Of a stretch of 47,331 nucleotides of DNA, positions 3,723-47,331 are shown piece by piece. A program made the translations under genes and the position numbers. Source of the stretch: Bacteroidaceae bacterium. Its GTDB lineage: Bacteria; Bacteroidota; Bacteroidia; Bacteroidales; Barnesiellaceae_A. The notes below the pieces were generated by a model. That model was not told where the DNA came from, made no database searches, and worked only from the letters and a program-made list of their open reading frames with translations. Location: positions 1 through 47,331 of the forward strand of contig JAFXIZ010000021.1 of NCBI GenBank assembly GCA_017532725.1, written 5' to 3'. The stretch's first letter is position 1. Each line of letters opens with the position of its first letter.

Positions 3723-4030
3723 GATACTTTCACTCGCTGTGAAGAGGCAGGGTGAAAATTGGGGTAATACTCCTCAGTCAGCAGGGCTGACAGCTCCTCT
3801 AACTTAGAGGAGCAGAAGCCTACGGCTTTAAATCAGCGTTACGCTGATTTCTCCTCCCTTAGATTAAGGGAGGTGGTCGCAGACCGGAGGGATATTTCAA
3901 TTTTGACACAGCCTCCCTTCTCGCTCGTTTATGCGTATCTTTGAGAAAAGTACTCGAAGATACTTTCACTCGCTGTGAAAAAAAATTCAAGTAAACTTGA
4001 TTTTTTCTCGCTCGTTTATGCGTATCTTTG
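3723..4030 (+). promoter_or_regulatory. Tandemly duplicated promoter module, one copy interrupted by a repeat element
   Basis: A 21-bp left part, GATACTTTCACTCGCTGTGAA, occurs exactly at 3723-3743 and 3959-3979. A 26-bp right part ending in TATGCGTATCTTTG occurs exactly at 3918-3943 and 4005-4030. In the downstream copy the two parts are 25 bp apart and enclose the palindrome TCAAGT-AA-ACTTGA (3987-4000). In the upstream copy the middle is replaced by the MITE-like element 3744-3915. The left part itself contains TTTCAC-TCGCT-GTGAAA. The last TATCTTTG (4023-4030) is the probable -7 element of the DUF4923 gene at 4063. Confidence 0.65.
3744..3915. mobile_element. MITE-like intergenic repeat, copy 1
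   Basis: This is a 172-bp non-coding element, closely similar along its whole length to 22641-22816. Its ends are imperfect terminal inverted repeats of 17 bp (GAGGCAGGGTGAAAATT against AATTTTGACACAGCCTC). Inside, several hairpins are nested in series: CTCCTCTAA-CTTAGAGGAG, AGCC-TAC-GGCT, AAATCAGCG-TTA-CGCTGATTT and CTCCCTTA-GAT-TAAGGGAG. There is no open reading frame for a transposase, so if it moves it must be mobilised in trans. Mobility is inferred from the two copies and the end structure only. Confidence 0.65.
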
Positions 4031-22585: not shown

Positions 22586-22640
22586 TGAATGTTTAGAGTT
22601 TCGATTGTTGCCGAGAGGCACATTCAGTTATCATAAATAA

Positions 22641-22816
22641 GAGGGTGTGTCAAAATTCCGGTAATACTCCTCAGTCAGCCAAACTGACAGCTCCTCTAAT
22701 TTAGAGGAGCAGAAGCCTACGGCTTTAAATCAGCGTTTTACGCTGATTTCTCCTCCCTTAGATTAAGGGAGGTGTCGCATAGCGACGGAGGGATATTTCA
22801 ATTTTGACACGCCCTC
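22641..22816. mobile_element. MITE-like intergenic repeat, copy 2
   Basis: This is a 176-bp element homologous to 3744-3915. Its terminal inverted repeats are nearly perfect: GAGGGTGTGTCAAAATT (22641-22657) against AATTTTGACACGCCCTC (22800-22816), one mismatch in 17. The internal hairpins (CTCCTCTAA/TTAGAGGAG, AAATCAGCG/CGCTGATTT, CTCCCTTA/TAAGGGAG, GTCGC/GCGAC) are conserved, with compensating or neutral changes in loops. It sits between the convergent Yip1-like and amidase genes and may also act as a terminator. Confidence 0.7.
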
Positions 22817-27159: not shown

Positions 27160-27208
27160 ATAACACCCCCGACAGCCTTGAGCCATCGGGGGTGTTTTGT
27201 GCTTTAAG
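27160..27208 (+). terminator. Terminator, copy 1 of a 49-bp exact repeat
   Basis: The stem AACACCCCCGA (27162-27172) / TCGGGGGTGTT (27186-27196) is followed by TTGTGCTTTAAG. The 49 bases 27160-27208 are identical, loop and tail included, to 28288-28336. It ends the relA-lipoprotein transcript. Confidence 0.9.
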
Positions 27209-27287: not shown

Positions 27288-27318
27288 CTTGTTAAAAGAA
27301 ATTATTTTATTATATTTG
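27288..27318 (+). promoter_or_regulatory. Promoter of the structured leader
   Basis: CTTG (27288-27291) and TATATTTG (27311-27318) are 19 nt apart. Transcription would start near 27325, about 270 bases before the next start codon, a long leader for this genome segment. Confidence 0.65.
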
Positions 27319-27320
27319 CA

Positions 27321-27576
27321 ATGCAGTCTTCGGATTGCATACATATTTTGATGAAAGTGTATTAGCTTTTATCCTTTGTGCGAAATCTGGAAAATTTCAA
27401 TAAAACAAGGATAGCAATTACGCTCATCACTTCGTATTGGTATATCCCAAGGGGACTCTCCCCTGTCCAATACGAGTGTGAGGTGTTGTTTATTTGTTTT
27501 AGGGTATTCCAGAACCTCGCACAAAATAAACTAAGTAACCTCACACTTTCTTTTTATAATACCCTTATTGAGGTTA
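27321..27576 (+). ncRNA. Structured leader RNA or small RNA with alternative hairpins (unassigned)
   Basis: Elements in order: (1) hairpin ATGCAGTC-TTCG-GATTGCAT (27321-27340), a UUCG tetraloop at or just upstream of the 5' end; (2) TATCCTTTGT (27370-27379) with ACAAGGATA (27405-27413), enclosing GAAAT/ATTTC; (3) a 16-bp stem with two single-T bulges, 27423-27440 with 27467-27482, containing GGGGA-CTC-TCCCC; (4) AGTGTGAGGT (27475-27484) with ACCTCACACT (27538-27547), extended by TTTATTTG with CAAAATAAA, then a T-rich run 27548-27555; (5) TAACCTC (27536-27542) with GAGGTTA (27570-27576). Stems 3 and 4 share bases and exclude each other, as do 4 and 5. I recognise no known riboswitch or 6S/tmRNA/SRP signature. 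It may be a cis attenuator or a free sRNA ended by stem 4. Confidence 0.6.
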
Positions 27577-27597: not shown

Positions 27598-28272
27598 ATG
27601 AAAAAGTTTTTATTGGTTTTGGTTGCGGCAATGAGTATAACTCAATTTGCGATGTCGCAAGATGTTATCATTTTGTTGAATAGCGAGGAGATACAAGCGA
27701 AGGTTAAGACTGTGGGAATTAACGAAATAACATATATTAGATGGGATAACCTTGATGGTCCTGTTTATGAATTGCCCAAATCGGATATTCTCTATGTGAA
27801 GTATGCCAACGGACAAAAAGAAATTTTTAATACTGGGGCAAATGTGAATAAAACTACAAAACCTTACATTAGTAGATTTCAAAGTTATATCTATCTTGGT
27901 GCTGATCTTTTTATAGATTCTGGTGGACCTTCTCTTGATGTTAGTTTAGGTGCCCGTACTTCGCAATATTTCTATATTGGTGGAGGTATTGGGTGTCATA
28001 GTTTGTTTGGACGTGATATGGGGTTGTTGTATGTTCCTTTTACATCAGATATTAAATTCTTTGTTCCTACAAAGAGTGACTTTAATCCGAGATTAGATTT
28101 ATCTGTTGGTGGTATGATGTTTGTTGCACGTCCATCATTCGGAATTTATATGAATTTGGGTGCTGGTTTTGACTGTCGTAGATTCTCTTTTGGTGCTGGA
28201 TATCAAATGATTGTAGGGGGAGGATTTACATCTTTGGGTTATATTCGTTTAGGAATAAGATTGGGTAAATAA
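27598..28272 (+). CDS. Hypothetical secreted protein, probable outer-membrane beta-barrel
   Basis: 224 residues with a signal peptide (cleavage near AMS-QD, residue 20-21). Residues 21-75 (DVIILLNSEEIQAKVKTVG, then DILYVKYANGQKEIF) form a small beta domain seen at the start of various Bacteroidota surface proteins. The rest alternates polar and aromatic/glycine residues in short strands and ends in YIRLGIRLGK, suggesting a small barrel of about eight strands. Arginine is often AGA and leucine often TTA, unlike the CGT/CGC and TTG/CTC of its neighbours. With its leader it is bracketed by exact 49-bp repeats, which suggests later acquisition. Function is unknown. Confidence 0.75.
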   Translation: MKKFLLVLVAAMSITQFAMSQDVIILLNSEEIQAKVKTVGINEITYIRWDNLDGPVYELPKSDILYVKYANGQKEIFNTGANVNKTTKPYISRFQSYIYLGADLFIDSGGPSLDVSLGARTSQYFYIGGGIGCHSLFGRDMGLLYVPFTSDIKFFVPTKSDFNPRLDLSVGGMMFVARPSFGIYMNLGAGFDCRRFSFGAGYQMIVGGGFTSLGYIRLGIRLGK

Positions 28273-28287
28273 TAAAAATTCATATAT

Positions 28288-28336
28288 ATAACACCCCCGA
28301 CAGCCTTGAGCCATCGGGGGTGTTTTGTGCTTTAAG
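28288..28336. terminator. Bidirectional terminator, copy 2 of the 49-bp exact repeat
   Basis: It has the same stem (28290-28300 / 28314-28324), loop and tail as 27160-28208's counterpart at 27160-27208. It lies between the barrel gene and the convergent ridA. Confidence 0.9.
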
Positions 28337-30116: not shown

Positions 30117-30148
30117 ATTGCAAGTATAAATATAATAGTCATAAAAAA

Positions 30149-30500
30149 ACAGTAAGCCTATAAGCCGGGTTATGTACTCCGTTTCCGGAGCGTCTGTCAT
30201 TTATCTTGGTTTTATGTCACCATAAAACTCTTTGCGGTTTACCCCCCGGCATCGGACGAGCAGCCCTACTGCGCCGGTATACATAACCTTACAACCCATA
30301 AGACGTACGGCACAATGTGTTGCCACACTGCCCGGTGGGCTCTTACCCCACCTTTTCACCCTTACCACCTTGCGGTGGCGGTTATTCTCTGTTACGCTAC
30401 TCCACCCTCACGAATGGCTTCTCGTTAAGAAGTATGGTGCTCTGCGTTGCCCGGACTTTCCTCACAAGAATATCTTGCGCGACAGACCGACCTACTGTAT
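30149..30500 (-). ncRNA. rnpB: RNase P RNA (class A)
   Basis: Read on the reverse strand, the conserved GAGGAAAGTCCGGGC (30464-30450) follows the 5' end. The 3' part carries ACATAACCCGGCTTAT (near 30177-30160). The terminal helix P1 pairs ACAGTAGGTC (30498-30489) with GGCTTACTGT (30158-30149), wobble pairs included, and a run of T follows directly on the reverse strand, forming the terminator. It is the catalytic RNA that trims the 5' leaders of tRNA precursors. The length of about 350 nt fits class A. The YihY-family gene begins 33 bases further on in the same direction. Confidence 0.96.
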
Positions 30501-43474: not shown

Positions 43475-43660
43475 TTGTATCTCGTCAGGTTACGGGATAC
43501 AACAATCGGCTCGGTCGATTATACGCCCGAGAACAAAATACGAGAAAGCCGAAAAGTATGGATATAAAAGTGACTACCAATTCCTACGGCGGCATTACCC
43601 GCATCAGGTTCATAGGGTATAATCTCAGCCGCACGATTGCAGCACCCCTTTGTGTGTTGA
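43475..43660 (-). promoter_or_regulatory. TPP riboswitch and expression platform of the thi operon
   Basis: On the reverse strand the aptamer (about 43660-43571) shows GGGGTGC (43648-43642), CTGAGA (43627-43622), ACCC-TATGAACCTGATGCGGG and TAATGCCGCCGTAGGAATTGG, the universal thi-box features. Downstream, TCGGCT can pair with AGCCGA (about 43536-43531 with 43512-43507). The last hairpin, TTGTATC-N14-GATACAA (43502-43475), stands directly against the ATG at 43473. No T-run is seen, so control of translation initiation is more likely than termination (inference). Confidence 0.93.
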
Positions 43661-45930: not shown

Positions 45931-47331
45931 CTACAATGCTACTTTTTGTGTAACGCCATTCACTTGCACAAGGTATATGCCGTTTGGCAATGCTATACCC
46001 GATGCTTGGGCTACAGTTGTGTGGTGTAGCAATGCTCCGTTGGTGTTGTAGATGTTCACCACAGCATTATCGGCAGCACCGGCTATAGCAAGTGTGCCAC
46101 CTACAACTGTCACCGAGAAGGCGTCATCGGCTCTCACCCCCTCTACGCTTGTCAAATCATCGGTGATATTGGTAAAATATTCCCAATAGGGAGCCTCTGC
46201 ATATACATCTTTATACCCCTTTACAGTGTGTAGTATTACGTCGTTGTTCTCATAGTATCTAAACGTAAACGTGTTGGTATATATGGTAGGAGGCACTGTC
46301 GGATAGGTATACACATCTTTTATTTTATTACAGCCGGAAAACGCATTGTCGCCTATCTCTTGCACTCCACTGCCTATTGTTACAAGACTCAATTCGATAC
46401 ATTCACTGAAAGCACTACAACCAATCGAAGTAACACTATTAGGAATAGTAATAGAAGTCAATCCGCAGCAACAAGAGAAAGCCCGATCGCCAATCGAAGT
46501 AACACTATTGCCGATAGTAACCGAAGTCAATCCGTAGCAATAATCGAATGCTTCATTACCAATTGAAGTAACGCTATTTGGGATAGTAACAACTGTCAAT
46601 TCGTAGCAGTAATAGAACGCACCATCACCAATCGAAGTAACGCTATTAGGGATAGTAACTTCTGCCAATCCGGTGCAATACGAGAATGCCTTATCTCCAA
46701 TCGAAGTAACGCTATTGGGTATCGTAACCGAAGTCAATCCGTCGCAATCAGAGAAAGCCTTATCTCCAATCGAAGTAACACTATTGCCAATAGTAATCTT
46801 TGTCAATCCGGTACAATACCTAAAAGCACCATCACCAATCGAAGTAACGCGATTAGGGATAGTAACCGAAGTCAATCCGTCGCAATTTGAGAAAGCATAA
46901 TCACCAATTGAAATAACACTATTGGGGATAGTAATCTCTGTCAATTCGTTGCAATCAGAGAAAGCCTTATCTCCAATCGAAGTAACGCTATTAGGGATGG
47001 TCGCCTCTGTCAATTCGGTGCAAACCGAGAATGCACCATTACCAATTGAAGTAACACTATTAGGAATAGTAATAGAAGTCAATCCTACGCATCCAGTAAA
47101 TGCACTACCGCCTATAGAAGTAACACTATTGGGGATAGTAATAGAAGTCAATCCGGTGCATCTATAGAAAGCATTATTACCAATCGAAGTAACGCTATAT
47201 TTTGTACCAGAATAGGTTACAGTTTCAGGAATAACTACCGAACCGGTGTATCTGTCATAATTTTCAGAATAATATGATCCACTATAAGTAACCATTACTG
47301 TTTTTTCTGTTTCGCTTGTGATGTAGTAATA
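45931..47331 (-). CDS. BspA-like leucine-rich repeat surface protein (5' end outside the window)
   Basis: At least 466 residues. The frame is open to the window edge (upstream residues [12 protein letters not shown] run into the first Met at 47295), so the true start with its signal peptide lies outside. Thirteen LRR_5 units of 23 residues, consensus [19 protein letters not shown] plus IPNS, form a curved beta solenoid. A linker ([18 protein letters not shown]) and a C-terminal tail [13 protein letters not shown], then [19 protein letters not shown], follow; this resembles Por/type IX secretion sorting domains. Likely a secreted or surface adhesion or host-interaction protein. Confidence 0.9.
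46297..47193 (-). repeat. Tandem 69-bp repeats encoding the LRR units
   Basis: Thirteen units in register with the reading frame; the last is the most diverged. Neighbouring units are similar also at the DNA level (GAAGTAACGCTATTAGGGAT recurs on the + strand), so copy number may change by slippage or recombination. Open frames on the + strand here are shadows of the repeat. Confidence 0.9.

Follow-up and report, generated by a model that had tools for sequence, protein, structure and literature searches.

The question of what the leader RNA upstream of the barrel gene does

A 47,331-nt stretch of DNA from a Bacteroidaceae bacterium (contig JAFXIZ010000021.1, referred to here as the window) contains, at positions 27321-27576, a segment that an earlier note had described as a leader RNA with mutually exclusive hairpins. 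This raises the question of whether this RNA controls the gene behind it (27598-28272), which encodes a 224-aa protein with a signal-peptide-like start and without a Pfam match, or whether it acts as an independent small RNA. The leader was computed to fold at -87.9 kcal/mol, compared with -50.3 ± 4.4 kcal/mol for dinucleotide shuffles (z -8.6; 0/200), and its minimum-energy fold was shown to consist mainly of a long hairpin of helices B, C and D, capped by helix G.

All of the leader elements named in the earlier note were found in the sequence where it had placed them. These include the claimed promoter, with a -7 box TATATTTG at 27311-27318, a UUCG hairpin near the transcription start (27321-27340), an upstream stem (27423-27440 with 27467-27482) and a competing stem (27475-27484 with 27538-27547) followed by a T-run (27548-27555). 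Every listed stem was thus present, yet that inventory had overlooked the dominant long-range helices B, C and D. A stable 5′ hairpin, of unconserved sequence, was observed in 42 of 65 members of the family described below.

A multicopy RNA family in Bacteroidota

Scanning against Rfam 15 did not yield a family above the gathering threshold on the window leader, nor at permissive thresholds, and the relatives scanned were likewise without a match over this region, in agreement with the earlier note, which had matched it to no RNA class it knew. Elsewhere in the window, Rfam identified RNase P RNA at 30145-30498 (minus strand) and a TPP riboswitch at 43564-43659 (minus strand).

A blastn comparison with eight other genomes of the genus revealed full or nearly full copies in four of these, and the genes flanking the leader were shown to differ in every genome of the genus with a copy. 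A covariance model (R1), built from five congeneric copies and searched with a cut-off of E <= 1, matched 71 of 295 genomes of the order, representing 51 of 183 genera, with most E values far below 1e-4. Up to seven copies were found per genome, with three in the source genome, while a sample of the phylum contained the leader in 11 of 296 genomes. Among named genomes, a pattern scan located the leader in Alistipes, Rikenella, Tidjanibacter, Bacteroides acidifaciens, Bacteroides nordii, Phocaeicola, Prevotella, Pedobacter, Belliella and two Fibrobacter assemblies, and all 18 of the 18 loci tested were confirmed by the model. The leader is one member of a multicopy, previously unlisted family of structured leaders in Bacteroidota, the 3,161 unnamed candidates of PMC8040213 being outside this comparison.

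Several other identities were considered and rejected. For a phage origin, only one of the five pattern hits in IMG/VR was confirmed by the model, and matches were seen in two phage records without annotation; for a plasmid origin, there was one Bacteroides finegoldii record; and for a defence function, PADLOC matches were isolated only. RF00013 (6S RNA) was unmatched in this genome and the leader did not match any 6S family, while an ARAGORN match indicative of tmRNA or tRNA was absent.

Two tandem leaders were observed before one gene at three loci (L023, L056 and L149), each in a different lineage; L149 belongs to Bacteroides acidifaciens DSM 15896. At two further loci (L085 and L037), the U-run was absent, with CACGCTTGAACCGAA following segment 4 and no co-oriented gene, possibly representing decayed or gene-less ends of the leader-gene unit.

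Covariation of competing helices

Covariation in homologues, which the earlier note had proposed as the test of its reading, was strong both within and beyond the genus. In the starting alignment of the five congeneric copies, produced by MAFFT and not fitted to structure, helices B, C, D and G were paired in 88% of cells, compared with 75% in shuffled and at most 51% in slid alignments, with 23 double-change cells (0/500 shuffles). Helices B and C were paired in 100% of cells, with compensatory changes in six of the seven pairs of B. In an alignment of 100 rows, which includes five weak or antisense search matches that could only blur the signal, the covariation score was 0.853, compared with 0.212 ± 0.009 for shuffled and 0.03-0.09 for slid versions, and 857 double-change cells were counted across the whole structure versus 249 in shuffles. 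Helices B, C and D were paired in 94-99% of cases in this alignment, although paired percentages beyond the genus lean towards the model, as B, C, D and G are part of the model used to retrieve those members. By helix, these figures were 98.7% for B (27377-27383 with 27517-27523), with compensatory changes at every pair; 99.0% for six of the seven pairs of C (27386-27392 with 27507-27513) and 96.0% for the seventh; and 93.9% for D (27401-27406 with 27496-27501).

Because the search model itself contains helices B, C and D, circularity was controlled for by examining helices outside the model through partner swaps between 85 dereplicated members. Helix A (AUCCUU at 27371-27376 with AAGGAU at 27407-27412), terminator helix E (27475-27484 with 27538-27547) and helix F, which extends the terminator (GUUUAU at 27488-27493 with AUAAAC at 27526-27531), all covary, with z values of -14.5, -13.2 and -12.5, respectively, compared with +1.8, -1.4 and +3.1 for the control combinations A5xE3, A5xF3 and I5xJ3. 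Values of -10.2 and -8.6 were obtained for helix G, which derives from the first stem of the earlier note (27428-27440 with 27467-27478, the latter strand overlapping the terminator), and for a small alternative hairpin (GAAAU/AUUUC, 27382-27398) that holds the C5 strand in its loop. The site of the 5′ strand of helix F also serves as strand J3 of the long hairpin (z -7.6 for J).

The competing pairings can be described by four segments. Segment 3 (AGUGUGAGGU, 27475-27484), which is the 5′ strand of the terminator, pairs with segment 4 (ACCUCACACU, 27538-27547; z -13.2), and its anti-terminator partner is segment 2 (ACGCUCAUCACUU, 27420-27432; 2:3 z -6.8). Segment 1 (GAAAGUGU, 27353-27360) is complementary to segment 4 (ACACUUUC), with which it would form the closing stem of the anti-terminator (1:4 z -7.2; control 1:H +0.1), and weakly to segment 2. 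The 2:3 and 1:4 pairings showed only partial support within lineages, while a 1:2 pairing was rejected, as its z of -5.9 overall was without support within lineages. Both of the mutually exclusive stems from the earlier note were thus shown to covary among the 85 dereplicated members, and since segment 3 is common to G (2:3) and E (3:4), the presence of one segment with two partners holds family-wide.

Other pairings proposed in the earlier note were more restricted. GAGGUUA (strand H, 27570-27576) complements 27536-27542 across the U-tract, as claimed for the window, but applies to a subset of members only, a complement of at least 7 nt being found in 14 of 77 members versus 3.4 expected. The AGGGTAT/ATACCCT pseudoknot was observed in the window only, where the longest complement is 8, compared with 3-4 in six relatives. 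A third pairing of AGTGTGAGGT, with ACCTCGCAC, was likewise confined to the window (5, compared with 0-3 in relatives); the site of ACCTCGCAC is strand B3.

The B/C internal loop is formed by a near-invariant AA (27384-27385; 94 of 96 members) and a near-invariant RCC (27514-27516; ACC in the window, ACC or GCC in 90 of 96), and a nearly invariant, unpaired GG is present in 94 of 96 members. While these nucleotides are nearly fixed, helices B and D exhibit 87 and 90 distinct sequences, respectively, among 96 members. This pattern resembles a binding or tertiary site and is suggestive, at the sequence level only and without amounting to proof of binding, of a candidate aptamer-like core.

The leader and its gene as an inserted unit

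The leader and its gene are enclosed by a 49-bp direct repeat whose two copies (27160-27208 and 28288-28336) are 100% identical and occur nowhere else in the genome. The window unit sits between convergent genes, and the repeat corresponds to their common terminator: copy 1, at the left border of the insert, is the bidirectional terminator behind the upstream lipoprotein gene, and copy 2, at the right border, is the terminator shared with the convergent RidA-like gene. In two sister species (G001 and G008), the convergent lipoprotein, RidA and YihY neighbours are present with one terminator, and both leader and gene are absent. In a third genome (G004), the unit is flanked by a different, 55-bp terminator repeat; an empty site in its sisters was not demonstrable, as the gene order behind the flavoprotein gene differs there. 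A 1.85-kb insert in G215, composed of a leader and four small genes, is located behind folK, between a promoter and its 5′ UTR, and is flanked by a 55-bp repeat that carries the promoter and is found as a single copy in eight of eight sister genomes.

Direct repeats flanking the leader were clear in these 3 cases among 94 loci and are as such not a general feature; nine other repeat pairs in the DNA of the 94 loci were leader copies or were located elsewhere. An artefact of short-read assembly could fake one repeat, but hardly three different ones plus empty sites. The leader appears to travel with its gene upon insertion at new places. Target duplications of about 50 bp are not known to us from any transposition system, and no report of an insertion of this type was retrieved from the literature.

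Two other repeats were observed in the window. One, which may be a MITE-like element, is a pair of ~175-bp copies (3742-3915 and 22639-22816; 89-100% identical) that contain terminator-like hairpins and have AAGAGG.../...CCTC at their ends, and the other consists of about ten 69-nt repeats (46337-47257, minus strand) within a 454-aa ORF, corresponding to 23-residue repeats.

The proteins encoded downstream of the leader are diverse, with 58 Pfam families among 76 proteins, of which Por secretion tails (7) and BspA-type LRR proteins (5) were the most common. Within this genus, the cargo comprises the barrel-like protein, DUF805, fimbrillin-like and unknown secreted proteins. A homologue of the window cargo (31% identical) was found behind a leader at another locus in sister species G001; a related-locus search with the window barrel protein did not yield a match. 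Target genes of a single pathway, which are usual though not obligatory for riboswitches, were not observed, and such unrelated targets speak for a global signal or a cassette-type element rather than for an ordinary metabolite riboswitch.

The 49-55 bp target duplications with their empty sites, together with the unrelated cargo, also fit a reading in which cassettes are mobilised through recognition of the leader, either as RNA or as a folded DNA strand, expression control being secondary. Tandem and truncated leader copies point the same way, as do sister genomes G095 and G196 (loci L068 and L085), which share 96% identity across the upstream region and the leader and diverge right after the terminator. 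However, target duplications were found in only 3 of 94 loci, the distance between leader and left border varies among the three inserts, and neither a linked recombinase nor a reverse transcriptase was seen. Promoter and terminator are moreover conserved as in a regulatory leader, and G-U pairs and UUCG or UACG loops indicate function as RNA over DNA, rendering a primary role in mobility unlikely.

Arrangement of promoter, terminator and downstream gene

The downstream gene is co-oriented with the leader in 86 of 93 cases, whereas upstream genes are divided 48 to 38. Of 67 members, 50 carry a TAnnTTTG box upstream of the leader, whereas only two have one between terminator and start codon, an interval with a median of 60 nt; 4.3 would be expected in either region. 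The intrinsic terminator (27538-27555) comprises segment 4, or E3, and a U-tract; in 86 of the 88 located members, five or more of the nine nucleotides that follow segment 4 are T. A promoter upstream, none between terminator and gene, and a conserved U-run together indicate that the gene is normally reached by readthrough.

These observations bear on the two roles between which the earlier note had left a choice. An independent, trans-acting sRNA of about 230 nt, next to a separately promoted gene, would account for the strong conserved terminator, the own promoter and the multicopy nature of the leader, and other leaders could serve as pairing partners of its exposed, conserved C loop. Such a free-standing sRNA is nevertheless improbable, and slightly more so than a primary role in mobility, given the same-strand gene at a near-fixed distance in 86 of 93 cases, the promoter box missing in front of that gene and the joint insertion of leader and gene. 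Promoter position and co-orientation instead favour a cis-acting leader of the gene at 27598, the terminated transcript of which could additionally act as an sRNA.

Control by a leader peptide or a start-stop uORF was rejected, as mini-ORFs were found in 37 of 96 members versus 45.6 expected; an ATG precedes segment 1 in only five members, and a conserved short ORF of the trp type was not observed. Two features expected of a transcription attenuator are present, namely a co-oriented intrinsic terminator upstream of the gene and a mutually exclusive anti-terminator with comparative support.

A proposed attenuation mechanism

The leader is probably a cis-acting, bistable transcription attenuator that forms part of a single leader-plus-gene unit. 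Starting from the observed helices and their covariation, the order of promoter, terminator and gene, and the insertion with target duplication, we infer that the switch is used, in which direction it acts and that a factor binds. RNA polymerase would start just before about 27325 and then transcribe the leader. In the terminated fold, segments 3 (27475-27484) and 4 (27538-27547) would pair; together with helix F as an extension and the U-run behind it, this stem would constitute an intrinsic terminator and halt transcription after about 230 nt. Helix A and the small hairpin would meanwhile keep strands B5, C5 and D5 in loops. In the anti-terminated fold, the C loop would meet its partner and zip into the long hairpin of B, C, D and G; segment 2 would then occupy segment 3, segment 1 could occupy segment 4, and with the terminator blocked, the gene at 27598 would be transcribed. 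Sensing of a common factor, which may be a small molecule, a protein or an RNA, would probably take place at the B-C-D module, which carries the AA/RCC internal loop and the GG linker.

The anti-terminated fold was computed to be more stable than the terminated fold in 93% of 76 members, by a mean of 11 kcal/mol (-71.6 versus -62.4 kcal/mol in the window), suggesting that termination would need a kinetic win or a stabilising factor. Alternatively, a single knotted fold could accommodate several of the helices; a static RNA of this type, in which two hairpins have loops that kiss via B, C and D and which protects mRNA or binds protein without switching, would agree with the covariation of A, B, C, D, E and F, not all of which are mutually exclusive on paper, but is very improbable, as segment 3 is common to the supported helices G and E, so that at least these two exclude each other.

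Comparison with known systems

Like attenuators of the trp/his type, the leader combines a 2:3 pairing with a 3:4 terminator that it excludes, just before the gene. It differs from these in the lack of a conserved leader peptide (mini-uORFs are not enriched) and in having long-range helices B, C and D, an invariant internal loop and unrelated target genes. The orphan riboswitch candidates crcB and pfl, first described in PMC2864571, are likewise structured 5′ leaders that overlap an intrinsic terminator in many genera, whereas the targets of the present leader do not share a pathway, the leader is multicopy and inserted together with its cargo, and no ligand is assigned to it.

DUF805 RNA (RF03081) is also a Bacteroidales leader located before diverse small secreted or membrane genes, and it directly follows the leader at two loci (L032 and L036). 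It is, however, a 68-nt element with its own Rfam model, which the leader does not match, and, as 20 DUF805 RNA loci were without a leader copy, the idea that it forms a required 3′ portion of the leader was rejected. DUF805 RNAs were also observed in arrays, with up to 17 copies per genome. Each copy immediately precedes a single small co-oriented gene, the kind of which varies, as at locus L287 (G020:C350:6500-15500; copies at 1556, 1967, 3056, 3565 and 6694). Such an arrangement is more suggestive of a cassette array than of a regulator of DUF805 genes.

The FopS and GibS RNAs of Bacteroides share with the leader a multicopy RNA family, sigma-ABfr promoters and terminators (PMC11697453). 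FopS RNAs are 65-70 nt in length, with a single-stranded 5′ seed and a terminator, and act in trans on PUL mRNAs (PMC11697453), whereas the leader is about 230 nt, cis-acting and structured; identity with FopS was rejected on length and structure. Integron gene cassettes resemble the leader unit in joining single accessory genes to a common structured element, but the leader lies 5′ of its gene, carries a promoter and terminator, and is associated with ~50-bp target duplications. An integrase was not seen in a non-systematic look at the flanks examined.

Significance

In view of the insertions, it becomes relevant to ask how these units move with such long target duplications. Speculatively, and with a probability that we consider low, they may represent an undescribed gene-cassette system of Bacteroidota, in which a leader with one or a few accessory genes would insert at terminators or promoters with ~50-bp target duplications, the insertion mechanism needing the leader structure and the same structure providing a common on/off switch for the arrived gene. 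About one in four sampled genomes from a dominant gut order contains this covarying leader, which is absent from Rfam, and its location before dozens of unrelated secreted and accessory genes implies a shared signal or mechanism, unnamed in the sources that could be searched. Its bistable anatomy makes the leader directly testable in cultured species, for example Bacteroides acidifaciens, B. nordii, B. finegoldii and Pedobacter.
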